Shown here: positions 27,147-46,853 of the stretch, one piece after another
Position numbering within the stretch: the first letter of the stretch is position 1
Layout of the letters: each line of letters opens with the position of its first letter
DNA from: Stenotrophomonas sp. SY1
GTDB lineage: Bacteria > Pseudomonadota > Gammaproteobacteria > Xanthomonadales > Xanthomonadaceae
Assembly: GCF_021202945.1 (NCBI RefSeq)
Contig: NZ_JAJOYR010000001.1
Span: forward strand, 186,001 to 250,000
Direction of reading: 5' to 3'
DNA: 64,000 nucleotides
Position numbers and translations under genes: made by a program
Notes under the pieces: generated by a model
Database searches by the model: none
What the model was told of the DNA's origin: nothing
The model's input: only the letters and a program-made list of their open reading frames with translations

Positions 27147-27875
27147 GTGGCATTGCTCGATAACAACGCGGCGGCTGACGCCGACAACGCGCAGGCATTG
27201 GCGCCGCTGCGGGTCTGGATCGTGGGCAATCTCGACATCGTGCAACCGTTGCTGCGCTACGGCGCACAGGTGCATGCGATGGATAGCATCGAAGCGCTGT
27301 ACCGCGAGTTGGCGATCGTGCCGTGTGACGTGGTGTTGATCGACACCGCATTGATGGGCAAGGGGCTGGCCACCACGGTCGGGCATCTGCGTCGGCGCGA
27401 CGACCTTGGCGTGGTGCTGCTGGTGGATGCGGCCACGCCGCAACGCATTGCCGAAGGCCTGTGGGCCGGTGCTGACGCCTGCATGCCACACCGGCCCGAG
27501 CCGGATCTGCTGGCGGCCAAGCTGTACAGCCTGCGCCGGCGCCTGCCCGGCGAACTGGCACAGGTGCAGGAGGCGGCAACCGGCAGCGCCCGCTGGGAAC
27601 TGGAGTCCGGTGGCTGGAACCTGCGTGCGCCCAGTGGCACGGTGCTGGCCCTGACCGAAGCCGAGCGTGCGTTCCTGTCCTTGTTGTTTGCCGCGCCAGA
27701 CGAAACCGTCGGTCGCGAGCGGCTGATTGCGGTTCTCACCGACCAGCCATGGAGCTTCGACCCGCACCGGATCGAAGTGCTGGTCCACCGGCTGCGCAAC
27801 CGGGTACGCAGTGGCACCGGCTGCACCCTGCCGGTCCGCGCGGTGCGGGGCTCGGGCTATCGCCTGACGCTCTGA
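27147..27875 (+). CDS. OmpR/PhoB-type winged-helix regulator with degenerate receiver
   Basis: A 242-residue DNA-binding protein. The C-terminal half (about 150-242) is a typical winged helix: LTEAERAFLSLLF, the recognition helix region FDPHRIEVLVHRLRNRVR and the wing RAVRGSGYRL. The N-terminal half resembles a receiver (about 20-135), with Asp in VVLIDTALMG. It lacks the acidic pair normally found at the end of beta 1 (it reads RVWIVGN) and the usual switch Lys, so classical phosphorylation is doubtful. GTG 27147 is preceded by GGGGAGAA. No kinase gene is adjacent. It lies directly upstream of the giant surface-protein operon and may regulate it (inference). Confidence 0.8.
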   Translation: MALLDNNAAADADNAQALAPLRVWIVGNLDIVQPLLRYGAQVHAMDSIEALYRELAIVPCDVVLIDTALMGKGLATTVGHLRRRDDLGVVLLVDAATPQRIAEGLWAGADACMPHRPEPDLLAAKLYSLRRRLPGELAQVQEAATGSARWELESGGWNLRAPSGTVLALTEAERAFLSLLFAAPDETVGRERLIAVLTDQPWSFDPHRIEVLVHRLRNRVRSGTGCTLPVRAVRGSGYRLTL

Positions 27876-28506
27876 CCGGGCATTGCGTCGCGCCGGGGGT
27901 GGTCGGCGCAATGTCACAGTTTTCAGTGAAGCCCCCGGCGCGCGAGCCAGGCCAGGGCCAGTCGTGCTGGCGCTGATGCGCAGTGGGTGGAGCAACGCCC
28001 CGCTGCCGTTCAGCGGGTGCCGAACCCCGCTTCGGAAGGGTGCATGGCCCACGATCCCGCTCGTCGATGCAGGCCCCGCTCCTCTGCCAGGACGCTTCCA
28101 GGGTTGCCGGACTGTCGCCTGTACCCGCCGTTCAGCGCAGTTGGCCGTCGCCAGTGCTGTCGTGCAGCAATGCGAAGTCCGTCACATTAATTTTTAGTTC
28201 ACATTTTTGAAGATGGCGCATTCATCTGTCTGAGCGCTGGATTAAGTGAATTTCTTGTTAAATCAAGTGTTTGCGAAATTTATGGAACGCAGTCGATTGC
28301 TGGAATGTGACCCAGTGAGAGTTTCAGCCAACAAAAGGCACTGTAACTGCCCCGAAGCAGGGTAAGAATCCGCGCCCTCACAAGCACCTCATGGTGCTGA
28401 ACAGGTGTTCCGTTGGGGCGGAACACCTTCCAAGCCAACACGACAACGCCCGGATTGCCAGGAGAACTGGTGACCCGGTTGACAGCGTTTTGCAGAGGGT
28501 TGCCCG
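27876..28506 (+). promoter_or_regulatory. Long AT-richer leader of the giant-protein operon
   Basis: This 631-base gap has no gene of ordinary size. From about 28180 to 28330 it is markedly richer in A and T than anything around it (for example TTAATTTTTAGTTCACATTT and TTTCTTGTTAAATC), which suits a promoter. TTGTTA at 28255 is a possible -35, but I cannot fix a -10. Downstream lie two hairpins and a 23-codon frame, listed separately. Confidence 0.5.
28384..28428 (+). promoter_or_regulatory. Tandem hairpins in the leader
   Basis: A 6-base stem (AGCACC-TCAT-GGTGCT, 28384-28399) is followed after 3 bases by a perfect 10-base stem (AGGTGTTCCG, 28403-28412, with CGGAACACCT, 28419-28428; loop TTGGGG). 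No T-run follows, so this is more likely a structured RNA leader or operator than a terminator. Confidence 0.5.
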
Positions 28507-28541
28507 GTGAACAAGCAGTTCGAGCAGTGCATTGCCAGTGA
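28470..28541 (+). CDS. Candidate leader peptide, 23 codons
   Basis: GTG 28470 has a good ribosome site (GGAG at 28461-28464, 5 bases away) and opens a 23-residue frame ending at TGA 28541. It overlaps the first 35 bases of the giant gene in another frame. It could couple translation of the giant protein to its own, or be chance. The encoded peptide has no recognisable feature. Confidence 0.3.
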   Translation: MTRLTAFCRGLPGEQAVRAVHCQ

Positions 28542-31500
28542 TGGCGTCAACGCAATGGGACAGCGGGGCCGCAACGGTTCACGCTGGTATGCACGCATTG
28601 CCCGATCGGTGGCGCTGTTGGCCTTGCTGCCGGCAACGGCACTGGCCACCGTGGTGCCACAGAGCGTGAACGTGCCGGCCAACATGGGCCAGGGCATCGA
28701 TACCGCGGTGAGCATCAACTGGTTGCGCACCGCCAGCGACGCCAGTGAAACCACTGTCTCCGTGGTGTTGCCGGCCAATGTCGAATTCGTGCCAGCGGTC
28801 CCGCCGTCCACAGACGACTGCACCTACAACAGCGGTACCCGTACCGTGTCCTGCGCGGTGGCGGCCGGTGCGGCCTCCAACGGTTCGCTGGGCTTCACCA
28901 TCCGCGCCCAGGGCGTGGGCAGCAGCTTCAACCTGACCGCACGCTCGAGCAACAGCCCCACTTCGGCGACCAACACCACCACGATCCGCGAAACCGGCAA
29001 CCTGACGGTGGACAAGGTGCTGACGGCTCCATCCGATGGCGAAAGCGCCACCGGCAGCACCGTCACCTTCGAACTACGTCCGAACATCGCCAATGGCGGC
29101 AGTGACTTGCCGGCGGGCGCCAAGATCGTCATCACCGACCAGTTGCCGGGTGATGCAGCGAACGTGGTGCAGAGCATCACCGCCTCCGGCGGCAGCGTAG
29201 CGTGTGGATCGGTCGCCACGGCCAACAGCACCCGTCGCTTCACCTGCACTTACAGCGGGCCGATGAGGGCAGCGGATCTCAATGCGGCCAAGGTCACCGT
29301 GGTCATGCAGACCAACGGCCTGGGTACGCATACCAACAACGCCAGCATCGCCACCGAAAACGACAACTACTTCGACGCCGACCCCAACGACAACGCCGAC
29401 AGCGCCAGCTACGAGGTAGTGCTGGGTACCGATATCGAAGCGCAGATCAGCTTCCCCGGCCAGCCGCTGGAAGTGAACACGCCGCAGGATCTGGTGCTGA
29501 CCTATCAGAACCATGGTCCGCAGACGAGCACCGTCGGCGGCACCATTGCCACGATCATTCCGGACGGCTTCGTGATCGGCACCTTGCCGACAAGCTGCGT
29601 GGCCGAGCCGAACAGGCAGCTCACCGTTTCCGGGCAGACCATCAGCGGCACGCTGGTGACCTGTGATGCAGGCGTGGTGGCGCCGGGCAGTGAAGTCGCC
29701 TTCACCATTCCGGTCACCACTCCTGCGACCGGCACGGGCGGGCGTTTCCCGGTGGTGGCCACGCCGCCGGCCAGCCTGAAGGACTGGAACCAGGGCAACA
29801 ACGCCAAGCTCACCCCCTATCAGGTCAACGAGCCGTACACCGACATCCGTCTGTCCAAGCGCAAGAGCCCGGACGGCAAAGCGATCGCCCCGGGTACGGC
29901 CATCACCACGACGCTTACTGTCAGCAACGGCACCAGCAGCACCAGCGACGCGCAGTACACGCCGGCCCAGCCGCTGTACGTGGTCGATTACATGCGCCCG
30001 GAAGAAATCGATGCCAGCTTCGGTGTGGGTGGCCTGGCCAACATCACCGACGCCGCTGTGTGGCAGTGCTCGGTGGAGCGTGGCGTGATGCCGCCGACAA
30101 ACCATGGCGGCAAGACGGTTCGCGTTCGTTGCCAGACCACCGGCACCGGCACGCTCGTGCGTGGTGAAAGCATGGGGTTGTCATTCCAGACCCAGGCCAC
30201 GGCCATTGTCGGCCAGGCGACGCTGTCCAACTACGCCTGCGCCGGTGCCAGTGCACTGACCCAGCTGGGCATCAGTGCCAGCAATGGCGCACAGCCGGCC
30301 GACAAGGAAACCAACAACGACTGCGACAGCGCCGGTAACGGCCTGATCCTGACCGATGTGGTCAATGACACCGCCTGGGTCAACATCGAGAAGTCTTCCT
30401 CGGTGGACGACAGCACCTGGGTGGATGAAGCCGCCAACGCGCCGACCCTGGCAGCGGACAAGGACCGGCTGTACTGGAAGATCGTGGTGACCACGCCGAG
30501 CACGGCGGAAAAGCCCAACCAGATGGTCATCCCGACCCTGCAGTTGACCGACAACGTGCCAGGCGTCCTGAACAATGGCCCGTTCCAGACACGGGTGAGC
30601 ATGACGCGGCGCCAAATCCTGCCGGCGGGCAATGGCAGTTTCAGCGAATGCAACGCACCGGCACCGGGTGCGGCCACCTTCCACTGTGACGTCAAGAACG
30701 TCGCACCCGGTACTCGAATCGAACTGGTGCTGGAAGTGGACCGCCCGCTGTCCTCCGGCAGGTTGACCAACACCGTCGAGGTGGCCTCGCCCGACGCGGT
30801 GCTGTCCTCGCTGCGCGCGGACGGCAAGTACGGCGACGACGCGGCAATCATCGTTGCCCCGCGCACCGACTACCGGATGACCAGCAAGGTGGTCAGCCCG
30901 GCCAATGAAGTGCTGATCGGCGAGCCGATGAGCTTCACCCTGACTGCACGCAACCACGGCCCGGATGCCGCACCGGTGGGTGATTTCGTCATCACCGACA
31001 CGCTGCCCGTCGGTACGCCGACGATGACCCAGGTGGCTTACGACATCATCGATGTCGTGCCGGCCAGTGGCAGCCCGTTGGACTGCAACATCAATCACAG
31101 CAGTGGCCTTGTCACCTGTACGAATACCGCTCTGATCGCCTCGCAGACCACCCATACGGTCACCATCAAGGCCCGCGTCAAGAAGCCGGCCAATCTGAGC
31201 GTGGCTGCCGGCGGCGTCGTTTACAGCAATGTCACCAACACCGCCAAGGTCGAGTCCACGGGCTTGATCTGCCAGTACCTGCCGGGTTCCTCGACGGCCT
31301 GCAACGATGCCGCTTCGCAAGGCAACAACAACGCCTCGGTGGACTTCGTGGTCAAGGTGCCGACCATCGACCTGCAGGCGCGCAAGACCCAGGTTTACCC
31401 AGCCGGGCGCAATGCGTTCGTGGCCGGCGACCAGCTGCGCTATCGCCTGACTGCTTTCAACATCGGGCCGTCGCAGGCCGAGAACGTGGAGGTCCGTGAC

Positions 31501-34500
31501 CTGCTCACTCCGCCGACCGGTTTCACTGTCGCCTTCGACAAGGTGGAGAGGGTCAATGCTGCTGGCCTGATCAGTGGTTACACCTACAAGCAGGATGCCA
31601 ACGTCAGCTGCGCCCAGGTGGGCCAGGAGCTGGTTTGCACCCTGCATCCGATCGAGGCCAACAACCGCCTGGACAAGAACCAGCTGGTCACCTTTGAAGT
31701 CGTGTTCAACGTCATCGGTGATTCCAGCCGCCCGGTGGTGTTCGACAACCGCGCCTATGTCTGCGGTGACGAAACCACCAATTACGAGGCACGGGGCGAA
31801 TGCAGTGCCGATCCGGACGTGGCCGGCAACAACATTGCTTCGGTGAATGATGTGCTGTTCCCGGCCTCGGACCTGGAAGTGGTGAGCAAGACCACCGTCA
31901 CCGCTGGCCCGGTCGATATCGGCCAGCCGATCCAGTACGACATCGTCGTGCGCAATGCCGTTGGCAGCACTGTGGAGAAGATGCGCGTCACCGACACGCT
32001 GCCCAAGGGCTTTGCGTGGGTGAACGATGCAACCCATGCGCTGAACGTGAAGGTCGATGGTGGCAGTGCCGCCACCCTGAGTGGTGTGGTGCGCGCAGCA
32101 GGCAGCAAGCCGGCCGCCGGCACCGACAACGTGTGCTACCTCTCCAGTGGCCCCTCCTCGATCACCGACAAGGACCAGCAGCAGGCAATCACCTGCGACC
32201 TGGGCGGCAACTTCCCGTCCGGTGCTGGCAACACGCTGACCCTGACGCTGTGGGCACGTGCCATGCCCGGCGTGTTCGCCGGCGGCTACGCGCCGGCCAA
32301 CCACACCAACAACGTGAGCATCGAACCGGGCCGCGACGACAAGGATTCGCCGACCTCGGTGGACCAGGTGCCGACCAACAACAACGGCAGCTCCACCACC
32401 CAGGTACGCAACGCCAGCCTCGGCGGCCGCGTCTTCGCCGACGACAATGACAACGGTGACCAGGACAGTGGCGATACCGGCATTGCCGGCGTCACGGTGA
32501 CGCTGACGGGCACCGACCTGTACGGCAATCCGGTTTCGATCACCGCCACGACCAATGCCAATGGCGACTACCAGTTCAACAACCTGGTGCCGTCCGACAG
32601 CAATGGCTACAGCATCATCCAGACCCAGCCGGCCGGTTATGCCGCCAATGGCACGCCGCAGCCGAATACCCTGCGCCCGAACCGGAACCAGGCCAGTACC
32701 GGCGTGACCGGCACCTTCAGCGCTGACAACACCCCCACCACCAGCGAGATCAGTGGTGTGGTGCTGGGCGGCGGTGGCGTGGGCGTGCAGTTCGATTTCC
32801 CGGAGCCAAGCGAGCGCAAGCTCTCCGGCTACGTTTACATCGACCAGGACAACAACCGCGTCTTGAGCAGCGCCGATGCACGCATTGGCAGTGCCACCGT
32901 GTACCTGGACGAAGTGGAGACCGGTCGTACCCTTACGGCGACTACCGACAATGTCCAGAACCCGGGCTTTTATGAGTTCACCGGCTTGACCGCCGGCAAG
33001 ACCTATGTGCTGCGCGAGCCGCTGCCCACCAATCCGGCCGGTCTGCAGAACCTGCCTGCCGCGGTGAACCCGGGCAAGATCGGTGGCGTGCTGTGCGGTC
33101 CGGTCTGTCTGGTGTCCACCACCGGCAGCGAAGACAAGATCGCCGGCATCAAGCTGGTGGCCGGCAACGGCACCGAGTTCAACTTCGGTGAAAACATCAC
33201 CACCGCCATCTCCGGCAAGGTCTACCTGGACCGCGACGACAGCGGCGTCCAGAACGGTACCGAACCGGGCATTCCGGGCGTGACCATCACCGTCACCGAT
33301 TCCAGTGGCGCCGTGGTGTGGACCGGTCCCACCGCCGCTGATGGCAGCTACAGCGTGCCCGGCTTGATTGCAGGTCACGACTACACCATCACCGAGACCC
33401 AGCCGGTCGGCCTGAAGGACGGCCGGGAGCACACCTCCAACGTCATCGCCATCACCCAGCTGCCGCCGGCCGGTTCGTCCGGCAACAACTTCGGTGAGCT
33501 GGCCGCCTCGCTGGCTGGCCGCGTGTACCTGGACCAGCTCAATGACGGTCACACCGCCAGTGATCCGGGCCTTGGCAACGTGCAGGTCACCCTGAGCCGT
33601 CGTGACGGCCAGCCGGTGCTTGATGTGCTGGGCAAGCCGGTGCCGGTGCAGCCCACCAGCCCGATCGACGGCAGCTATGCCTTCATCGACCTGCCGGCCG
33701 GCGACTACATCGTCACCCAGCAGCTGACGCAGCCGGTCTACACCCCGGCCGGTGGCAGCGCGACCACCACCCTCAACGGCACCACCACCGCCGGCACCGT
33801 CATCGACGGCACCGCGGGCGTGGCAACGGCCGTGCGTGACACCCCCAGCGCCATCACCGGCGTGGTGTTGAATGCCGGCGGCAAGTCGGTGGACAACAAC
33901 TTCGGCGAGATCCTGCCGGTGTCCGCCTCGGGCGTGGTGTTCTTCGATCTCAACAACAATGGCGTGCAGGAACCGGGCGACGCCGGCATCGGTGGCGTGG
34001 ACATCCGCCTGGTCGGTACCGACGACCAGGGCAACCCGGTCGACACGACCGTGCCGACCAATGCCGACGGCAGCTTCAACTTCGATGGCCTGCGTCCGGG
34101 TACCTACACCCTGATCGAACCGACCCAGCCGGTGGGCACCGCGCAGGGCAAGACCACGGCTGGCCAGCTGGACAGCACCAAGGCCGGCAGCGGTACCGCC
34201 AGCAATGGTGCGGCACCGGAGTCGAGCAAGATCGCCAACATCGACCTGAGCCGTCCGGGTGATCTCTCCAGCGACAACCTGTTCGCCGAAGTGCCGACCA
34301 ACAGCGGCATCGCCGGCAAGGTATGGCTGGATGCCAACAACGACGGGGTCATTGATGCCGGCGAGAACGGCATTGCCGGCGTCGAGCTGGAACTGACCGG
34401 TACCGACATCAACGGCAACCCGATCGCGCCGGTCACCGTCACCACGGGTGCCGATGGCAGCTACAGCTTCCTCAACCTGCCCCCGGGCGAATACAAGGTG

Positions 34501-37383
34501 GTGGAGAAGCAGCAGCCGGCCGGCACCAACGATGGCAAGACCAAGCCGGGCAACATCGGTGGTACGCCGATGGGCAATGGCTCGGCCGAAGGCAGCGCTA
34601 CCGCGCAGAATCCGTCGTTCATCGGCACGATCACCGTTGGCGTGGGCCAGGTGTCGGTCGAGAACAACTTCGGTGAAGTGCCGGCAGCCAGCATCTCCGG
34701 CAACGTCTACAACGACAGCAATGACGATGGCATCCGCCAGCCCGAGGAAGGCGGCTTTGCCAACGTCACCGTCGAGTTGACCGGTACCGATGACCTGGGC
34801 AACCCGGTCACGCTGACCACCACCACCGACGCCAACGGCAAGTACAGCTTCGAGAACCTGCGCCCGGGCACCTATGTGGTGACCGAGCCGAACCAGCCGG
34901 CTGAAACGCTCAATGGCAAGACCACCGCCGGCAGCACCGGCGGCACGGGCAGCAATCCGTCGACGACCACCTCGCAGATCACCGGCATCGTGCTCAAGCC
35001 GGGTGACGAGTCGGTGGACAACAACTTCGGCGAGATCGGCGATTCGCCGGACATGCTGGTGAGCAAGTCGTCCGACACGGTGAAGTTCACCGTCAACAAC
35101 GTGGCCAGCTACACCATCCGCGTGCGCAACGGCGGGCAGCAGGCGTCCAAGGGCGAGTACATCGTCAAGGACCGCTTGCCGGTGGGCCTGAACCTGGCGG
35201 AGATTCCGTCGGGCAACGGCTGGACCTGCACCGGCGCGGTGGGCGATACCCGCTTTGAATGCCGCAGCGTTGAAGTGCTCAATGCCGGCGTCACCTCGGC
35301 ATCGGCCATCACCGTCAAGGTCAACGTCACCGCCGAGGCCGCCAAGGCCGGCACCGTCAACAACGCCGTGCTGGTGGAAGGCGGCGGCGAGAACGAGTTC
35401 CGCACCCCGACCACCACCGAGCGCACCGCGTTCGAAGGTGATGTCACCCAGTTGCCGGTGTGCGATACCGCCATCACCCAGAACGTGTGCCGCGTGCCGA
35501 ACCAGGTGCAGCTGTCCGCGTCCGTGGGCGGCACCGTGTGGTTCGACAAGGGCAGTGATGACGCCCTGCTCGACGGCGGCGATGAGCGCCTGCAGGGCTG
35601 GGTGGTGGAACTGGTCGACGCCGACACCGGTGCGGTGGTCAAGACCACCACCAGTGCCGTTGATGGCAGCTACCGCTTCGGCGATGTGGTGCCGGGCGTG
35701 AAGTGGAACATCCAGTTCCGCGAACCGACCACCAACGTGGTCTGGGCATGGCCGGTCAACCGCGAAACCGCCGGTGGCATGGGCGTGAGCTGTGATGCGA
35801 GCAAGGCCCTCAGCGATGGCGGCGTCAGCGCCTGCCGCATCGCCGACAACGGCATCAGCCAGTTGCAGGTGGTGCTCAAGGCCGGCGATCACCTGCCGCA
35901 GCAGAGCCTGCCGGTGGATCCGTCGGGCGTGGTGTATGACGCGGTCACCCGCGATCCGGTGCCCGGTTCCATCGTCACCCTCAGCCCGGTGGGCATGTGC
36001 AGTGGCTATGACCCGCTGGGTTCGCTGCTCAACGCCGCCGCCGGTGGTTACCGCGTGGAAGGCAATGCAGTGTCGATGACTGTCGGCAGCAACGGCTTCT
36101 ACCAGTTCATGTTCGGCCCGGCGGCGCCGGCACGTTGCGAGTTCCAGCTGACGGTGACCCCGCCAGGTGGCTACAAGTTCGTGTCCACGCTGATTCCGCC
36201 GCAGGCCGGTTCGTTGTCGCCAAACAGCGGCAGCACCATCCTGCCGGAGTTGAACAACCCCACCAACGGCGCCGGTACCAGCCATCTGGTGCAGCCGCAG
36301 GCCAACGCGCCGACCGGTGCGGTAGGCACGGCAACCCAGTACTGGCTGAGCGTGTTTGCCGGTTCGGCCACCGCCGGCATCGTCAACAACCACCTGCCGC
36401 TGGATACCGCCGAGGCGACCGGCCTGGTCATCACCAAGACCGGTGACCGCCAGACCGCCGAGATCGGTGACACCGTGCAGTACACCATCACCGTGCGCCA
36501 GACCTCCGGCAGCGCGATGGCCACCGTCAACATCGTTGACACGCTGCCGCGTGGCTTCACCTACATCGACGGCACCGGCCGTGTGGGTGGCCGTGCCGTG
36601 GACGCGCCGTACGGCAAGCCGGGCCCGCGCCTGGGCTTCGACCTGGGCCCGATCAACGTCGGCGAACAGCTGGTGCTGACCTACCGCGTACGCGTTGGCG
36701 TCGGTGCGCAGCAGGGCGACGGCATCAACCGTGCGCAGGCCCATGGCTGCTCCATCACCGGTGGCTGCATCAACACCGATGCGATGACCCCGCTGCCGGG
36801 CTCGGTGCCGTCCAACCATGCGCAGTACCGCGTGCGCGTCACCGGTGGCGTGTTCACCGAGGAAGCGTGCGTGCTGGGCAAGGTGTTCGTGGACTGCAAC
36901 AACAACCACGTGCAGGACCACGAAGAGCTGGGCATTCCGGGCGTGCGCCTGTACTTCTCCAACGGCACCTGGATGATCTCCGACTCCGAGGGCAAGTACA
37001 GCTACTGCGGCCTGACCCCGCAGAGCCACACGCTGAAGGTGGACCCGTCCACGTTGCCGGCCGGCTCGCGCCTGACCACCAGCAGCAACCGCAACCTGGG
37101 TGATGCCGACAGCCTGTTCCTGGACCTGAAGAACGGCGAGCTGCATCGCGCCGACTTCGTCGAAGGCAGCTGCTCCAACCCGCTGCTGGAACAGGTCAAG
37201 GCCCGCCGTACCCAGGGCGAAGTGCGCGCACCGGAAACTGAAACCGGGCAGTCGCCGCTGCGTTTTGAAAGCAAGCCCGCCCGTGCGCCGCAGCAGGCCA
37301 CGGACTCGGCCAACCAGAGACCGATCGTGCATCCGCGACCCAACCCGCCCTCGGCATCGGCCTCGCAGGAGGTGCAGCCATGA
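28507..37383 (+). CDS. Giant secreted DUF11 / SdrD-B repeat protein (2958 residues)
   Basis: An exported giant repeat protein. GTG 28507 has ribosome site AGAGGG at 7 bases and gives a long N-region before the signal hydrophobic core (about 33-47, cut near ALA-T). Residues about 50-1300 are eight or nine DUF11-type beta domains, most with one Cys pair. Residues about 1304-2178 are seven SdrD-B-type repeats of roughly 100-130 residues, each starting like GKVWLDANNDGVIDAGE (Asp/Asn-rich, calcium-loop-like) and ending near NNFGE. Two more DUF11 domains (about 2178-2311 and 2636-2783), further SdrD-B-like domains and a last Cys-containing one (about 2784-2891) precede a Pro/Gln-rich tail. There is no LPXTG, PEP-CTERM or membrane anchor. 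It overlaps the barrel gene. Probably a surface adhesin or matrix component (inference). Confidence 0.85.
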   Translation: MNKQFEQCIASDGVNAMGQRGRNGSRWYARIARSVALLALLPATALATVVPQSVNVPANMGQGIDTAVSINWLRTASDASETTVSVVLPANVEFVPAVPPSTDDCTYNSGTRTVSCAVAAGAASNGSLGFTIRAQGVGSSFNLTARSSNSPTSATNTTTIRETGNLTVDKVLTAPSDGESATGSTVTFELRPNIANGGSDLPAGAKIVITDQLPGDAANVVQSITASGGSVACGSVATANSTRRFTCTYSGPMRAADLNAAKVTVVMQTNGLGTHTNNASIATENDNYFDADPNDNADSASYEVVLGTDIEAQISFPGQPLEVNTPQDLVLTYQNHGPQTSTVGGTIATIIPDGFVIGTLPTSCVAEPNRQLTVSGQTISGTLVTCDAGVVAPGSEVAFTIPVTTPATGTGGRFPVVATPPASLKDWNQGNNAKLTPYQVNEPYTDIRLSKRKSPDGKAIAPGTAITTTLTVSNGTSSTSDAQYTPAQPLYVVDYMRPEEIDASFGVGGLANITDAAVWQCSVERGVMPPTNHGGKTVRVRCQTTGTGTLVRGESMGLSFQTQATAIVGQATLSNYACAGASALTQLGISASNGAQPADKETNNDCDSAGNGLILTDVVNDTAWVNIEKSSSVDDSTWVDEAANAPTLAADKDRLYWKIVVTTPSTAEKPNQMVIPTLQLTDNVPGVLNNGPFQTRVSMTRRQILPAGNGSFSECNAPAPGAATFHCDVKNVAPGTRIELVLEVDRPLSSGRLTNTVEVASPDAVLSSLRADGKYGDDAAIIVAPRTDYRMTSKVVSPANEVLIGEPMSFTLTARNHGPDAAPVGDFVITDTLPVGTPTMTQVAYDIIDVVPASGSPLDCNINHSSGLVTCTNTALIASQTTHTVTIKARVKKPANLSVAAGGVVYSNVTNTAKVESTGLICQYLPGSSTACNDAASQGNNNASVDFVVKVPTIDLQARKTQVYPAGRNAFVAGDQLRYRLTAFNIGPSQAENVEVRDLLTPPTGFTVAFDKVERVNAAGLISGYTYKQDANVSCAQVGQELVCTLHPIEANNRLDKNQLVTFEVVFNVIGDSSRPVVFDNRAYVCGDETTNYEARGECSADPDVAGNNIASVNDVLFPASDLEVVSKTTVTAGPVDIGQPIQYDIVVRNAVGSTVEKMRVTDTLPKGFAWVNDATHALNVKVDGGSAATLSGVVRAAGSKPAAGTDNVCYLSSGPSSITDKDQQQAITCDLGGNFPSGAGNTLTLTLWARAMPGVFAGGYAPANHTNNVSIEPGRDDKDSPTSVDQVPTNNNGSSTTQVRNASLGGRVFADDNDNGDQDSGDTGIAGVTVTLTGTDLYGNPVSITATTNANGDYQFNNLVPSDSNGYSIIQTQPAGYAANGTPQPNTLRPNRNQASTGVTGTFSADNTPTTSEISGVVLGGGGVGVQFDFPEPSERKLSGYVYIDQDNNRVLSSADARIGSATVYLDEVETGRTLTATTDNVQNPGFYEFTGLTAGKTYVLREPLPTNPAGLQNLPAAVNPGKIGGVLCGPVCLVSTTGSEDKIAGIKLVAGNGTEFNFGENITTAISGKVYLDRDDSGVQNGTEPGIPGVTITVTDSSGAVVWTGPTAADGSYSVPGLIAGHDYTITETQPVGLKDGREHTSNVIAITQLPPAGSSGNNFGELAASLAGRVYLDQLNDGHTASDPGLGNVQVTLSRRDGQPVLDVLGKPVPVQPTSPIDGSYAFIDLPAGDYIVTQQLTQPVYTPAGGSATTTLNGTTTAGTVIDGTAGVATAVRDTPSAITGVVLNAGGKSVDNNFGEILPVSASGVVFFDLNNNGVQEPGDAGIGGVDIRLVGTDDQGNPVDTTVPTNADGSFNFDGLRPGTYTLIEPTQPVGTAQGKTTAGQLDSTKAGSGTASNGAAPESSKIANIDLSRPGDLSSDNLFAEVPTNSGIAGKVWLDANNDGVIDAGENGIAGVELELTGTDINGNPIAPVTVTTGADGSYSFLNLPPGEYKVVEKQQPAGTNDGKTKPGNIGGTPMGNGSAEGSATAQNPSFIGTITVGVGQVSVENNFGEVPAASISGNVYNDSNDDGIRQPEEGGFANVTVELTGTDDLGNPVTLTTTTDANGKYSFENLRPGTYVVTEPNQPAETLNGKTTAGSTGGTGSNPSTTTSQITGIVLKPGDESVDNNFGEIGDSPDMLVSKSSDTVKFTVNNVASYTIRVRNGGQQASKGEYIVKDRLPVGLNLAEIPSGNGWTCTGAVGDTRFECRSVEVLNAGVTSASAITVKVNVTAEAAKAGTVNNAVLVEGGGENEFRTPTTTERTAFEGDVTQLPVCDTAITQNVCRVPNQVQLSASVGGTVWFDKGSDDALLDGGDERLQGWVVELVDADTGAVVKTTTSAVDGSYRFGDVVPGVKWNIQFREPTTNVVWAWPVNRETAGGMGVSCDASKALSDGGVSACRIADNGISQLQVVLKAGDHLPQQSLPVDPSGVVYDAVTRDPVPGSIVTLSPVGMCSGYDPLGSLLNAAAGGYRVEGNAVSMTVGSNGFYQFMFGPAAPARCEFQLTVTPPGGYKFVSTLIPPQAGSLSPNSGSTILPELNNPTNGAGTSHLVQPQANAPTGAVGTATQYWLSVFAGSATAGIVNNHLPLDTAEATGLVITKTGDRQTAEIGDTVQYTITVRQTSGSAMATVNIVDTLPRGFTYIDGTGRVGGRAVDAPYGKPGPRLGFDLGPINVGEQLVLTYRVRVGVGAQQGDGINRAQAHGCSITGGCINTDAMTPLPGSVPSNHAQYRVRVTGGVFTEEACVLGKVFVDCNNNHVQDHEELGIPGVRLYFSNGTWMISDSEGKYSYCGLTPQSHTLKVDPSTLPAGSRLTTSSNRNLGDADSLFLDLKNGELHRADFVEGSCSNPLLEQVKARRTQGEVRAPETETGQSPLRFESKPARAPQQATDSANQRPIVHPRPNPPSASASQEVQP

Positions 37384-40300
37384 GCCGCCGCAACCTGCGT
37401 GCGATGCCGCGCCTGAGCCTGCTGGCCTGCGCGCTGGCCACCGCCACCGTGCCGGCCGTTGCCCAGAACGTGGGCAGCAGTACCCGCTTCACGCCGGTGC
37501 TGGGTGATGCGACCACGTTGTATCCGCGTTCGCTGGTCACCACCGATACGCCGCCGGAAGTGGTCGCCGCCCGCTCGGGCGAAGCCGACTACAGCCGCAA
37601 CGTCGGCGTGGACCGCGTCTCGGTGGAAGTGGACCGCGATGGCGTGCCGGCCGATGGCCAGACGCCGGTGCACATCACCGTGCGTCTGCTCGGCGCCGAC
37701 GACAAGCCAATGGCCGGCAAGGCCTACGCCACCATCGAGAACAGCGGTGGCCGCATCCGCCTGCCGGGTTCGCGCACCGACGAGTTCGGCCCTGGCGCGG
37801 CTGATGCCGACAAGGTGATGCCGGGCGTGCAGGTGGAAGTGGAAAACGGCGTGGCCCAGTTCGAACTGGTTGCCCCGCACGATCCGCAGGACGTGGTGCT
37901 GCGCATCACCGCCGGCGGCCAGACGGCCGAAGGCACGATCGGCTTCCTGCCGGAAATGCGCGAGCTGCTGGCCACCGGCCTGATCGAAGGCATCGTCAAC
38001 TTCCGCAACAAGTCCAACGCCAGCCTGATCTCGCCGGTGCAGCACAACGATGCCTTCGACCGCGACATCCGTCGTTGGGAAAAGACATTCAACAACGGCA
38101 AGGCCAATGCCGCCGCGCGCACCGCGTTCTTCGTCAAGGGCCAGATCAAGGGTGAGTACCTGCTCACCGCGGCCTACGATTCGGACAAGGACGTGCGTGG
38201 CCGCCTGCTGCGCGACATCCAGCCCGAAGAGTTCTACCCGGTGTACGGCGACTCCTCGCTGCGTGGCTTCGACGCGCGCTCGGCCGAGCGCCTGTACGTG
38301 CGCGTGGACAACAAGCGCAGCTACCTGCTGTACGGCGATTTCCAGACCGGCGACACGCTGGCCACCAGCAGCGGCATCGGTGGCAGTGGCCCGATCCCGC
38401 AGCGCAGCCTGAGTACCTACAACCGCACCGCCACCGGCCTGGGCTGGCACTTCGAAAGCGAGCGCGTGCGTAGCAACGTGTTTGCCATCGAGGATTCGCT
38501 GCGGCAGATGATCGAAGAGTTCCGCAGCCAGGGCAGCGGCCCGTACGCGCTGCGCAACAACGCGGTGCTGGAAGGCAGCGAGCGCGTGGAAATGATCGTG
38601 CGCGACCGCAACCAGCCCACCCGCATCGTCTCGGTCAAGCCGCTGGCGCGTCTGGTGGACTACAGCTTCGAGCCGTTCTCCGGACGCATCCTGCTCAACC
38701 AGTTCCTGCCCTCGTTCGACAGCGATCTCAACCCGGTGTCGCTGCGCATCACCTATGAACTGGACCAGCAGACCGAGAAGTTCTGGGTGGTCGGTGCCGA
38801 TGGCCAGTTCAAGCTGACCGACAAGCTCGAAGTGGGCGCATCGGCAGTGGAAGACCGCAACCCGTATGCCGAGTTCAAGATGGGCAGCGTCAACGCCGGT
38901 TACCGCTTCGGTGAGAACACGATGCTGGTCGCCGAGTTCGCCCGCACCCGCAGCGAGGTCAACACCAACTCGCTCAACCAGGTCACCTCGCAGGGTTTGA
39001 AGGACGTGGTGGGTGAGGTGGAAGGCGATGCATGGCGCGTGGAATTCGCCCATGACGGCGGCAAGTTCGACGCCCGCCTGTTCGCCGCACGCACCGACCC
39101 GGAGTTCAACAACGCTGCCTCGCCGTTGTACGGCGGCCGTGGCGAGTACAACGCACGCATGGCGTATGCGGTTGGCCCGCGTCTTGAGTTGTATATCGAA
39201 GCCCTGCGCAGCGAAGACCGCAATCCCGATGGTGGTGAGCGCGATGCCGGTGGTGCCGGTGTGCGCATCGGCGCCACCGAGCGCCTGACGATCGACCTGG
39301 GCCTGCGCAGCATCCGCGAAACCATCGGCGTGACCTCGCCGTGGTCCTCCGGTGCGCCGTTCGGCCAGGTCGGCGGCCTGACCGGTGGTTTCGCCACCGG
39401 TGCTGGCGGCGGTGCACTGGGGTACGGCCAGCAGGCACTGGATCCGGCCACCGGCCTGATGGTCATCAACGGCTCGTCCTCGGGCAGCGTGATCAACAGC
39501 GACCTGCCGGTCGGCACCAAGCTCGAATCGGACAGTGCCCGCGTCGGCCTGGGTTACCGCTTCAGCGACAAATTCAGCGGCGGTGCCGAGTACGAACAGA
39601 GCGTCAGCGGCGAAGACCGCAACCGCGTTGCCGCAGGCGTGGATTACCAAGTGTTCGAACGCAGCCGCCTGTATGGCCGCTACGAAAAGCAGACCGGCCT
39701 GACCAGCGCCTACGGCATCACCACCACCGACCGCGAGGCCGATGCGCTGGTGTTCGGTATCGACAGCAGCTACCTGCGCGACACCCAGACGTTCTCCGAG
39801 TACCGCATGCGCGACTCGATCAGCGGCCGTGACGTGCAGGCTGCCTCGGGTATCCGCAACAACTGGGACATCGCCCAGGGCCTGCGCTTGAGCAGCTCGG
39901 TGGAGCGGGTGAACGTGGTGGCCGGTGACACCGGCGACAGCACCGGCCTGGCCTTGGCGTTGGACTACAGCGCCAACCCGTTGTGGCGCGGCGCCATCCG
40001 TGGCGAGCACCGCATCTCCGAGGACGTGCCGGGCACCACCGCCAACGAGGCTTTCAACACCACGCTGCTGCAGTTCATGGTGGCGCGCAAGTTGAGTCGC
40101 GACTGGACCCTGCTGGGTCGCAACTACCTGCTGGCCACCAACTACGAGGAGCGTGGTGACGTGCTGCAGGACCGCTTCCAGCTGGGCGTGGCCTACCGCG
40201 ACACCGACCGCAACCGTATCAACGCGCTGATGCGCTACGAGTACAAGCTCGAGCGTGACGAGAGCGGCCTGATGCTGGTCGATGGCGACGTGGTGGATGG

Positions 40301-40760
40301 CACCAGCCAGGACGTGCGCACCCGTGCGCATATCGTCTCGGCACATGCCGACTGGCACCCGTCGCGCCCGTGGTGGCTGACCGGCCGCATTGCCGGCAAG
40401 TGGCAGCGCGACCAGTTCGCCTATGGCGACGGCACCCGCGTGAACAGCAGCTTCAACGCCGTGCTGGTTTCCGGTCGCGTCGTCTACGACATCACCGAGA
40501 ATTGGGACATCGGCGTGCTCGGCTCCACTTTCCGTGGCCAGTACGGTGCCAACCAGTACGCCTTCGGCATGGAAGTGGGCCGGCTGTTGCGCCAGAACCT
40601 GTGGTTGTCGGCCGGTTACAACTGGACCGGTTTCGAAGGCGACAGCGACCTGAACGGCTACGAGTACACGCAGCAGGGTGCGTTCCTGCGCCTGCGCTTC
40701 AAGTTCGATGAAGATCTTTTCCGTCGGGACCCGGTTCGTTACCGCGATCCGGCCCGCTGA
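37380..40760 (+). CDS. Large outer-membrane beta-barrel protein with N-terminal Ig-like domain
   Basis: A 1126-residue precursor with a signal peptide (cut near VAQ at about 29). Residues about 75-205 look like an invasin/Big-1-type Ig domain (DGVPADGQTPVHITVRLLG and later GVAQFELVAP). A linker rich in conserved-looking motifs follows (TAAYDSDKD, VYGDSS, YVRVDNKRSYLLYGDF). The remainder, to about 1110, has alternating amphipathic strands typical of an outer-membrane barrel. There is no TonB box or plug and no POTRA domain. ATG 37380 overlaps the giant gene stop by 4 bases, and the OmpA gene follows after 10 bases. It may anchor or export the giant protein. I do not recognise a named family. 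Confidence 0.78.
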   Translation: MSRRNLRAMPRLSLLACALATATVPAVAQNVGSSTRFTPVLGDATTLYPRSLVTTDTPPEVVAARSGEADYSRNVGVDRVSVEVDRDGVPADGQTPVHITVRLLGADDKPMAGKAYATIENSGGRIRLPGSRTDEFGPGAADADKVMPGVQVEVENGVAQFELVAPHDPQDVVLRITAGGQTAEGTIGFLPEMRELLATGLIEGIVNFRNKSNASLISPVQHNDAFDRDIRRWEKTFNNGKANAAARTAFFVKGQIKGEYLLTAAYDSDKDVRGRLLRDIQPEEFYPVYGDSSLRGFDARSAERLYVRVDNKRSYLLYGDFQTGDTLATSSGIGGSGPIPQRSLSTYNRTATGLGWHFESERVRSNVFAIEDSLRQMIEEFRSQGSGPYALRNNAVLEGSERVEMIVRDRNQPTRIVSVKPLARLVDYSFEPFSGRILLNQFLPSFDSDLNPVSLRITYELDQQTEKFWVVGADGQFKLTDKLEVGASAVEDRNPYAEFKMGSVNAGYRFGENTMLVAEFARTRSEVNTNSLNQVTSQGLKDVVGEVEGDAWRVEFAHDGGKFDARLFAARTDPEFNNAASPLYGGRGEYNARMAYAVGPRLELYIEALRSEDRNPDGGERDAGGAGVRIGATERLTIDLGLRSIRETIGVTSPWSSGAPFGQVGGLTGGFATGAGGGALGYGQQALDPATGLMVINGSSSGSVINSDLPVGTKLESDSARVGLGYRFSDKFSGGAEYEQSVSGEDRNRVAAGVDYQVFERSRLYGRYEKQTGLTSAYGITTTDREADALVFGIDSSYLRDTQTFSEYRMRDSISGRDVQAASGIRNNWDIAQGLRLSSSVERVNVVAGDTGDSTGLALALDYSANPLWRGAIRGEHRISEDVPGTTANEAFNTTLLQFMVARKLSRDWTLLGRNYLLATNYEERGDVLQDRFQLGVAYRDTDRNRINALMRYEYKLERDESGLMLVDGDVVDGTSQDVRTRAHIVSAHADWHPSRPWWLTGRIAGKWQRDQFAYGDGTRVNSSFNAVLVSGRVVYDITENWDIGVLGSTFRGQYGANQYAFGMEVGRLLRQNLWLSAGYNWTGFEGDSDLNGYEYTQQGAFLRLRFKFDEDLFRRDPVRYRDPAR

Positions 40761-40770
40761 GGACGACACC

Positions 40771-41793
40771 ATGACTCTTTCGCATCTGAAAACCCCTTCG
40801 TTCCGCACGCTGCTCGCTGCTGCCGTGCTCACCGTCGTTGCCGGCACCGCCAGCGCGCAGCAGACCCAGCTCAACCCGCAGGCCAAGCGCATCACCGATG
40901 AGGCCATCCATGCCGACCTGGAGTCCTACGAGGTAACGCAGGGCCGCATCCAGGCGCTCAACGATGGAGGTCGCCCGATCCGCGATTACCACCTGTCCAA
41001 GGCCCAGTGCTGGCTGGACGTGTCCTTCCACGAATACACCCGCAACGACCGCAGTGACTTCCCGCAGGAAGCGCTGACCGAGTCGGAGAAGCTGATCGTG
41101 GACATGGAGAATGGTGTCTCGCCGATCCCCACCGACACCGCGCTGGTCAACAACGCCAAGTACCTGCGTGCCGACCTGTGGCAGCGTCTGAAGGTCATCC
41201 ACGGCACGCCGGGCTTCGCCTGCGCCGCGCAGAAGGTGGCCTGCGGTGAAGTGGAGCTGGTGCATGCCGGCAACGAGTTCAACCAGCAGCAGTGGCGTCA
41301 TTCCAAGCCGTACATCCAGATCGCTGAAGACCTGGTCAACGAAGCCGAAACGGCGGCACGCCTGTGCGGCGTGGACCCGGCAGGCCCGGCGGTGGTTCCG
41401 GTGGCGGCAGGCCCGCTGATCGCCAACGTGCTGTTCGAGTTCGACCGCGACGGCTACAAGGACATCCGCACCTACTCGCTGGAAAGCGTGGACCGTGCAT
41501 TGGCCACCATCGCCGCAGAGAAGCGCACGTTGAGCGGTGTGACCCTGGTGGGCCATGCCGACCGCATGCAGGGCAATGGCTTTGACTACAACCAGGCCTT
41601 GTCCGAGCGTCGTGCCAAGACGGTGCGTGAGCTGCTGATCGGCCGCGGTGTTGCTGGCGACAATATCCGCTACGAATACCGCGGCGACACCCAGCAGGTG
41701 CAGCAGTGCGATGGCGTCAAGCCGCGTGCGGCGCTGCTGGAATGCCTGCTGCCGAACCGCCGCGTGGAAGTGCGCTTCGAGCTGGCACAGTAA
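40771..41793 (+). CDS. OmpA-domain outer-membrane/periplasmic protein
   Basis: A 340-residue precursor with a signal peptide ending ASAQ (about residue 30) and no lipobox. An N-terminal helical region (about 35-215) contains four Cys and the HEYTRND segment. The C-terminal OmpA peptidoglycan-binding domain (about 225-340) begins VLFEFDRDGYKDI and contains LVGHADRMQGNGFDYNQALS and RRVEVRF. ATG 40771 lies 10 bases after the barrel gene. It probably ties the barrel and giant protein to the cell wall. A strong terminator follows, closing the operon. Confidence 0.88.
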   Translation: MTLSHLKTPSFRTLLAAAVLTVVAGTASAQQTQLNPQAKRITDEAIHADLESYEVTQGRIQALNDGGRPIRDYHLSKAQCWLDVSFHEYTRNDRSDFPQEALTESEKLIVDMENGVSPIPTDTALVNNAKYLRADLWQRLKVIHGTPGFACAAQKVACGEVELVHAGNEFNQQQWRHSKPYIQIAEDLVNEAETAARLCGVDPAGPAVVPVAAGPLIANVLFEFDRDGYKDIRTYSLESVDRALATIAAEKRTLSGVTLVGHADRMQGNGFDYNQALSERRAKTVRELLIGRGVAGDNIRYEYRGDTQQVQQCDGVKPRAALLECLLPNRRVEVRFELAQ

Positions 41794-41817
41794 GTTCGAT
41801 TCAGTTGTTGGACACAG

Positions 41818-41850
41818 AACGCCCCGGCAATGCCGGGGCGTTCTGCTTTT
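41818..41850 (+). terminator. Rho-independent terminator of the giant-protein operon
   Basis: AACGCCCCGG pairs with CCGGGGCGTT over a 5-base loop (41818-41842), followed by CTGCTTTTG. This is 25 bases after the OmpA gene stop. Confidence 0.93.
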
Positions 41851-41949: not shown

Positions 41950-42253
41950 GCCCCCTCCCTTGCGAAGCAGGGGAGGGTTGGGGAGGGGTAGCGCTCGCGG
42001 TGCTGTTGCTTGAACAGATACCCGTACACAAGTCTGTTGAAGCAATCCAACACCGAAGAGCAAGAACCAAAGCACCCCTCCCCAACCCTCCCCTTCACCT
42101 GCGGTGAAAGGGAGGGAGCGGGGCCGCTTCGGACCCCACTGCCTGCGGCGCAAGCGAGGGAGCAAGGAAGCCGGAGCGCTGCCAGCCAACCCAGAGCCGC
42201 AGCATTCCGCCCCCTCCCTTGCGCCGTAGGCGGAGGGGAGGGTTGGGGAGGGG
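41950..42253. repeat. Three quadruplex-type G-tract elements
   Basis: Exact copies of the 19-base tract lie at 41970-41988 (G-rich on +), 42075-42093 (C-rich on +) and 42235-42253 (G-rich on +), each beside a short CCCTCCC/GGGAGGG palindrome. They fill most of the 497-base gap 41794-42290 after the terminator; no gene is present there. The last copy ends 37 bases before the crbS start. Confidence 0.88.
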
Positions 42254-42290
42254 TAAGGCTCCAATCGCCCTCAGCCCCCAACCCAACGGA

Positions 42291-46556: not shown

Positions 46557-46627
46557 CTGGACTACCGGGCCGGGCTGGGACGCAAACGGCATGCGGCACG
46601 CCCAACCTGAAGTTGTGCACGCACGCC

Positions 46628-46730
46628 GCTGGTCTCGCCAACCGGGTCTGGCTGCCCACGCCACGGCGCACTGGCCGAGTGTGTTGACGTGGGCGCTTCC
46701 AATGCTGGAAGCAGGCTACTCCCCAAGGGA
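46628..46730 (-). ncRNA. yybP-ykoY manganese riboswitch of mntP
   Basis: Read on the minus strand, the leader shows the hallmark series of this riboswitch class in order: GGGGAGTAGCC (46724-46714), a GCTTCC/GGAAGC hairpin, CGTCAACAC (46689-46681), then GGGCAGCCAGACC and GGTTGGCGAGACC (to about 46631). The class binds Mn(II) and typically controls mntP, which starts about 75 bases downstream. A TAGAAT sequence at 46742-46737 could be the -10 element. Confidence 0.87.
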
Positions 46731-46853
46731 ATGCGGATTCTAGCATGGCCGCTGGCGGGGCCAGCAGCTGCAATACGCCTGTCACATTCCGCTGGCTTCA
46801 TGGGCGCCGCATCGCGGCCGTACCAGGCCGTGCGATGCGCCGGAAAGCGGCAC

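Follow-up and report, generated by a model that had tools for sequence, protein, structure and literature searches.

Two described systems stand closest to the locus considered here. In AtaA-TpgA, a trimeric autotransporter adhesin is paired with a periplasmic anchor partner (PMC13082670). The CLIPPER (DUF11) fibrillar adhesin B9T28_05395 of Acinetobacter silvestris has a DUF11 stalk and an OmpA-like anchor (PMC12617251), and the same source describes DUF11 as a stalk domain of surface adhesins, lists both DUF11 and SdrD_B as isopeptide families, and reports that the DUF11 domain of a Gram-negative adhesin was crystallised with its isopeptide bond. A further point of reference is SprA, the translocon of type IX secretion (PMC10994853). 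In the literature covered, we found no explanation of how fibres built of DUF11 and SdrD_B domains are exported across the Gram-negative outer membrane. The locus lies in a 64,000-nucleotide stretch of Stenotrophomonas sp. SY1 (contig NZ_JAJOYR010000001.1, positions 186,001 to 250,000, forward strand), hereafter the window, and encodes a giant DUF11/SdrD_B protein, a large outer-membrane barrel protein and an OmpA-domain protein, preceded by a response-regulator-like gene (Table 1). It is probably a self-contained surface-fibre cassette, in which the giant protein would have its base in the periplasm, the barrel would hold it and the OmpA-domain protein would tie it to peptidoglycan.

An earlier note, made from the letters of this DNA, had described a three-gene unit with a 4-base overlap and a 10-base gap, a 631-base leader, a closing terminator and signal peptides on all three products, and this description held. 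The giant and barrel genes overlap by 4 bases (28507-37383 and 37380-40760), and the most likely start of the OmpA-domain gene is the ATG at 40771, 10 bases past the barrel stop, the listed open reading frame (ORF) opening at GTG 40678. The gap at 27876-28506 is real, a 14-pair terminator-like hairpin follows at 41815-41845, and by eye the starts of the giant, barrel and OmpA proteins look like Sec-type signal peptides. The domains that the note had assigned to the first and third products were also returned by Pfam.

That these genes make up one dedicated unit, as the note had proposed, is borne out by co-occurrence, by fusions and by presence or absence as a block. With one genome scanned per species, 510 barrel matches were obtained, of which the best 79 were taken as barrel loci, so that the set leans toward close relatives; they come mostly from Gamma- and Betaproteobacteria, Stenotrophomonas rhizophila and Pseudoxanthomonas kalamensis included, with one Acidobacteria metagenome-assembled genome (MAG). 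For the conserved C-terminal domain of the giant (the C-domain), five loci with a truncated upstream edge (L031, L035, L050, L059 and L074) were left out; of the 74 loci then judgeable, 72 have it next to the barrel, 68 upstream and 4 downstream. In L070 and L077, which are scored as misses, a large ORF with a signal-like start stands downstream of the OmpA gene and continues past the end of the locus. An OmpA-type gene lies by the barrel in 75 of 78 judgeable loci, represented in L066 and L082 by its N-terminal part only. The gene order is changed in four loci, with the giant 3' of the barrel on the same strand, in L063, L069 and L071 after the OmpA gene, and in L081.

Homologues scattered independently, the outcome that the note had named as refuting, were not seen. 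In a class sample of 369 genomes, 50 carried the barrel, and a C-domain relative lay at most 6 kilobases upstream on the same strand at 55 of 59 barrel places, a count for which gene pieces were merged and the contig-end fragment G268:C35 was left out, and in which some C-domain matches are weak (to E 1.2e-4), the weakest two (G145 and G240:C116) being taken for their adjoining barrels. A cleaner count starts from the 56 strongest C-domain places (E up to 2.9e-10, with four G323 copies counted once), 49 of which have a barrel downstream; since DUF11 and SdrD_B domains are part of the C-domain query, unrelated stalks may be matched too. Barrel matches were found in 65 of 149 genomes of the family and in 56 of 349 genomes of the phylum, some of the latter covering the Ig-like (immunoglobulin-like) part only. 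A conserved arrangement in dozens of genomes exceeds chance. Barrel and C-domain distances correlate at 0.93 across 66 loci, a figure of little weight because it was not controlled for the species tree. L049 and L051, with a broken barrel frame, were left out of alignment A2. Candidatus Glomeribacter, an endosymbiont of fungi, also carries the module, as do Sphaerotilus and Leptothrix (L058, L073, L075 and L076), the last two being genera known for sheaths.

Fusions join the same parts. Giant and barrel form one chain in 5 of the 79 loci (L018, L060, L080, L082 and L084), in 14 of the 29 short loci L085-L113, and on plasmid p4 of Acinetobacter haemolyticus (L003), where the chain has 2008 residues and the OmpA gene follows directly. 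No second signal peptide was seen in six giant-barrel junctions inspected, and the seeming fusions of L015 and L016, which are overlapping long frames, were not counted. In the longest fusion, one open frame runs for 11777 codons and has the barrel at its end (L115-L117, G112:C2:428662-463995), the start of the protein lying somewhere within it; such an ORF is among the largest to be expected in bacteria. Eleftheria terrae has OmpA and barrel fused in a single chain. A second module in the SY1 genome itself (L114:39-11989, G000:C1:2271000-2290999) encodes a giant in which DUF7507/DUF11 repeats and a C-terminal OmpA domain share one chain, and a barrel of 1237 residues that overlaps its giant by four bases. 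This second-type barrel is homologous to that of the window over 878 columns (probability 100, E 2.2e-62). Giant and OmpA are again one chain in Croceibacterium, adjoining a second-type barrel, and thus all three pairwise fusions exist. Second-type barrels also adjoin DUF11/DUF7507 giants in the alphaproteobacteria Pelagibacterium and Nitratireductor, and in Sinorhizobium meliloti one lies beside a protein annotated DUF11. The Croceibacterium atlanticum copy is on a plasmid (L126:5777-15603), and its barrel is 65% identical to that of L114, against roughly 30% for other alphaproteobacterial plasmid copies, which suggests lateral transfer of that module.

Within the genus the locus behaves as a block. 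We surveyed the spacing of the flanking peptidase S46 and hybrid histidine kinase genes, which bound the cassette, in 41 genomes, leaving out one in which the site is split (G854). In 12 of the remaining 40 the flanks are 15-20 kilobases apart and the unit is present at that one site; in the other 28 they are 63-1346 bp apart and the first-type barrel is absent. The gene at 27147-27875, which the earlier note had not counted in the unit, was matched in all 12 unit-bearing genomes. None of the matches listed for it falls at the 28 empty sites, an absence that rests mainly on gap length, 27 of the 28 gaps being shorter than the 729-base gene itself. The regulator comes and goes with the unit, so the cassette begins at the regulator and has four genes: regulator, giant, barrel and OmpA gene.

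Two NCBIfam models, TIGR01451 for the DUF11 repeat and TIGR04226 for an isopeptide-forming domain, score above their curated cut-offs in the giant protein. Visual inspection shows a Lys...Asp...Asn pattern in several of its repeats, and its SdrD_B stretches lie between about 32413 and 37110. In six relatives its conservation climbs toward the C-terminus: the last stretch of residues (2801-2958) is 98, 97, 89, 94, 84 and 70% identical and the first 200 residues are 59, 60, 36, 34, 36 and 33% identical, the corresponding barrels being 95, 94, 88, 87, 75 and 49% identical. The C-terminus of the giant thus equals the barrel in conservation. A conserved base with a changing far end suits an anchored fibre. 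The C-domain carries a signature common to 90 aligned members, from Beta- and Gammaproteobacteria to the one Acidobacteria MAG, which would make it a natural docking site, and in many members it has four cysteines. Stalks range from 525 residues (L082, the shortest sound one, the broken or masked giants of L025, L049 and L056 not being counted as short) to 3153 (L045) among the loci, and to far more in G112.

The barrel protein has no Pfam family above cut-off and no NCBIfam match; only a sub-threshold Pfam Big_1 match covers residues 80-137. Its predicted structure has about 39 strands by hand count after an invasin-like Ig domain, which agrees with the Ig-like N-terminus given in the earlier note. 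Type V secretion barrels have 12 to 16 strands, and SprA has 36. Only the Ig domain has a solved relative, a weak one of invasin/intimin type (92 residues, 1.6 angstrom). A Foldseek search with the barrel put Deinococcus SlpA in the top row at a template-modelling (TM) score of about 0.2, together with generic matches to the barrels of TonB receptors. The structure-comparison lists held no close fold, and such lists do not establish a new one. The note's statement that the protein has no POTRA and no TonB plug was upheld, and it matches no autotransporter family. No type V barrel or POTRA family exceeded the Pfam cut-off in the barrels of the window, L114, P0121, P0123, P0124 and L018, with a sub-threshold YadA_anchor match in the L114 barrel (19.7 vs 22.7 bits); in the window itself Pfam gave no YadA_anchor in giant or barrel and no inverse-autotransporter barrel family in the barrel. 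As to SprA, Pfam gave no SprA_N match for the barrel and the search of solved structures gave no hit, but a weak and partial structural match was seen. Databases name members of the family TonB-dependent receptor, porin family protein or hypothetical protein, and the nearest named barrel among the matches listed is from Stenotrophomonas sp. ATCM1_4 (95% identity). In its C-terminal part the OmpA-domain protein matches the NCBIfam TpgA model with 88 bits, the cut-off being 350, and its OmpA domain is, as proposed before, a probable wall anchor.

In the arrangement that we favour, the giant would cross the inner membrane by its Sec signal, and its C-terminal domain would stay periplasmic, docked on the Ig domain and the mouth of a very wide barrel, where the OmpA-domain partner would clamp the fibre base to peptidoglycan. 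The N-terminal row of DUF11 and SdrD_B domains would stand outside as a stiff fibre, probably isopeptide-linked, whose variable far end would do the binding. The barrel would serve as membrane anchor and most likely as exit too, and the linked regulator would control the cassette. We place the C-terminus of the giant inside because other genomes join it either to an OmpA domain or to the N-terminal side of the barrel protein; the argument is one of layout, both of these parts being usually periplasmic. Docking and adhesion are inferred, and passage through the barrel is the least secure step. A wider proposal, which we hold tentatively and at somewhat less than an even chance, is that Pseudomonadota, and the organism of one Acidobacteria MAG, possess an unrecognised outer-membrane export system in which a barrel of about 36-39 strands, unrelated in sequence to known translocons, would serve a single dedicated client. 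That client, up to about 11000 residues long, would pass with the N-terminus facing out, perhaps in the form of folded Ig-like domains, the C-domain remaining docked inside and the OmpA tie being provided in cis or in trans.

Several observations weigh against a surface-fibre cassette of this kind. The surface location of the giant is inferred, and Pfam recognised no adhesive domain at its N-terminus. Repeats in its identity profile may be misaligned, which would lower mid-protein identity. At a mean predicted local distance difference test (pLDDT) of 70.4, the barrel model is not proof of a closed barrel, a pore or a strand number. The C-domain is not upstream at 4 of the 59 barrel places, and the barrel is not downstream at 7 of the 56 strongest C-domain places. 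The OmpA protein, which the note had made part of the assembly, keeps that place in most loci and loses it in 3 of 78 (L080, L081 and L084) and in Pelagibacterium and Nitratireductor, where the giants lack an OmpA domain and no adjoining gene is annotated as OmpA. The three-part rule is thus not universal, some alphaproteobacterial copies being without the OmpA part.

A fibre on the surface does not require export through the barrel, which might be only an anchor or a plugged socket, the fibre being moved with the help of the barrel assembly machinery (BAM) or the translocation and assembly module (TAM), or by type II secretion. The model displays no pore, helper machines are described for type V systems, and the separate genes in the order barrel, OmpA, giant in L063, L069 and L071 indicate that cotranslation is not needed. 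A barrel of some 39 predicted strands is nevertheless far beyond the needs of an anchor, and its direct fusion to the passenger has recurred, so that we consider this account rather unlikely. The giant might instead never leave the periplasm, with all three proteins forming a scaffold that ties the outer membrane to peptidoglycan in the manner of the Deinococcus SlpA tether. SlpA did head the Foldseek rows, though with the low score given above, the OmpA domain points to the wall, and the C-domain cysteines would suit oxidative periplasmic folding. Stalks of 525 to about 3150 residues, and more in G112, would be hard to fit into one periplasmic width, the N-terminal parts of the giants diverge fast, and DUF11 stalks are listed as surface proteins in PMC12617251; we regard a purely periplasmic role as improbable. 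Least credible of all is an uptake receptor or porin with the giant as an accessory, as the database names and the generic structural matches to TonB-receptor barrels would have it. No plug or TonB-receptor family was above cut-off in four scanned barrels (window, L114, Eleftheria and Pelagibacterium), the identity of the barrel as a TonB receptor was rejected on that ground, and a chain that carries a stalk hundreds to thousands of residues long does not have the layout of a receptor.

Table 1. Features of the cassette and its borders in the window
Feature	Position	Strand	Remarks
Response-regulator-like gene	27147..27875	+	Pfam Trans_reg_C above cut-off, Response_reg sub-threshold; OmpR-type DNA-binding domain, weak receiver domain
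Leader, 631 bases	27876..28506	+	Without known RNA family
Giant stalk protein, 2958 residues, GTG start	28507..37383	+	9 SdrD_B and 6 DUF11 stretches (Pfam)
Conserved C-terminal region of the giant, proposed docking domain	36424..37110	+	Last DUF11 and special SdrD_B domain
Large outer-membrane barrel protein, 1126 residues, ATG start	37380..40760	+	Predicted structure
Ig domain of the barrel protein, residues 75-192, invasin/intimin-like	37602..37955	+	
OmpA-domain protein	40771..41793	+	PF00691 above cut-off; helical-looking N-terminal part and OmpA domain
OmpA domain, peptidoglycan-binding type	41467..41712	+	Pfam, residues 264-345 of the 371-residue ORF from 40678
Terminator-like hairpin, 14 pairs	41815..41845	+	

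The leader matched no Rfam family at gathering score, and a riboswitch in it was rejected on that result, the one match being at chance level; its sequence is poorly conserved in the loci of relatives, with 2 matches among the fetched loci. Terminator-like sites as a class show no excess in the region (8 observed, 10.0 expected in shuffles), and no sigma-70-like promoter was found there. A phage or virus origin of the unit was rejected: 50,697 phage records gave no match, and viral contigs held no relative. Some 40 bases immediately downstream of the unit, within 42219-42264, recur at several further sites in the genome with 92-98% identity and look like a dispersed intergenic repeat. A manganese (yybP-ykoY) riboswitch lies at 46569-46736 of the window on the minus strand (54.4 bits).

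No description of the barrel family or of the module was found in the open-licence literature, subscription papers lying mostly outside the search. The earlier note's word undescribed has to be narrowed, because a DUF11 stalk with an OmpA-like anchor already appears in PMC12617251. If the proposal is correct, the module supplies for such fibres the wall anchor and a barrel partner belonging to a family that databanks label TonB receptor, porin or hypothetical, and export becomes directly testable by three gene removals. A wide barrel with one client would also be a simple system for asking whether folded domains cross the outer membrane, and export through the barrel, if proved, would deserve a class of its own.

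Surface display and wall anchoring are known in kind, and the barrel family fails the sequence tests for type V barrels and TonB receptors. Type I giant adhesins differ in that the giant here has a Sec signal peptide (by eye) and the cassette holds no exporter gene, a statement that covers the cassette and not other genome regions. Set against type IX secretion, the barrel shows no sequence match to SprA, other type IX parts not having been searched for. Deinococcus SlpA shares a large barrel tied to the wall, but the TM score is only about 0.2 and Pfam found no SLH domain in the giant, barrel or OmpA-domain proteins. Invasin and intimin have an Ig domain of the same type adjoining a barrel; here, however, the barrel comes after the Ig domain, and the passenger is made as a protein of its own or sits N-terminal to both. 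With the CLIPPER fibrillar adhesins the giant has in common a signal peptide (by eye), six tandem DUF11 stretches and TIGR04226 above cut-off. B9T28_05395 likewise has a DUF11 stalk, and its OmpA-like anchor is in the same chain, as in the L114 module, whereas the locus in the window has a barrel gene and a separate anchor gene, and the word barrel does not occur in the main text of PMC12617251. The note's phrase unlike type V was right for the parts, which fail the sequence tests, and less so for the layout, which is type-V-like, and a giant adhesin with a wall-anchor partner is known in AtaA-TpgA; a passenger at the N-terminus and a barrel at the C-terminus of one chain are found in the fused members only (L003 and L018, for example), the window having two genes. 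Like AtaA-TpgA, as that system is reported in PMC13082670, the cassette would combine a long surface fibre and a membrane barrel with a partner in the periplasm by which the anchor is made stronger, the OmpA-domain gene (40771-41793) lying beside that of the adhesin. It has no YadA-type anchor, its barrel is far larger, its passenger is usually separate and its stalk is made of DUF11 and SdrD_B domains, and our best reading is that it works like AtaA-TpgA, or like an autotransporter, assembled from unrelated parts.

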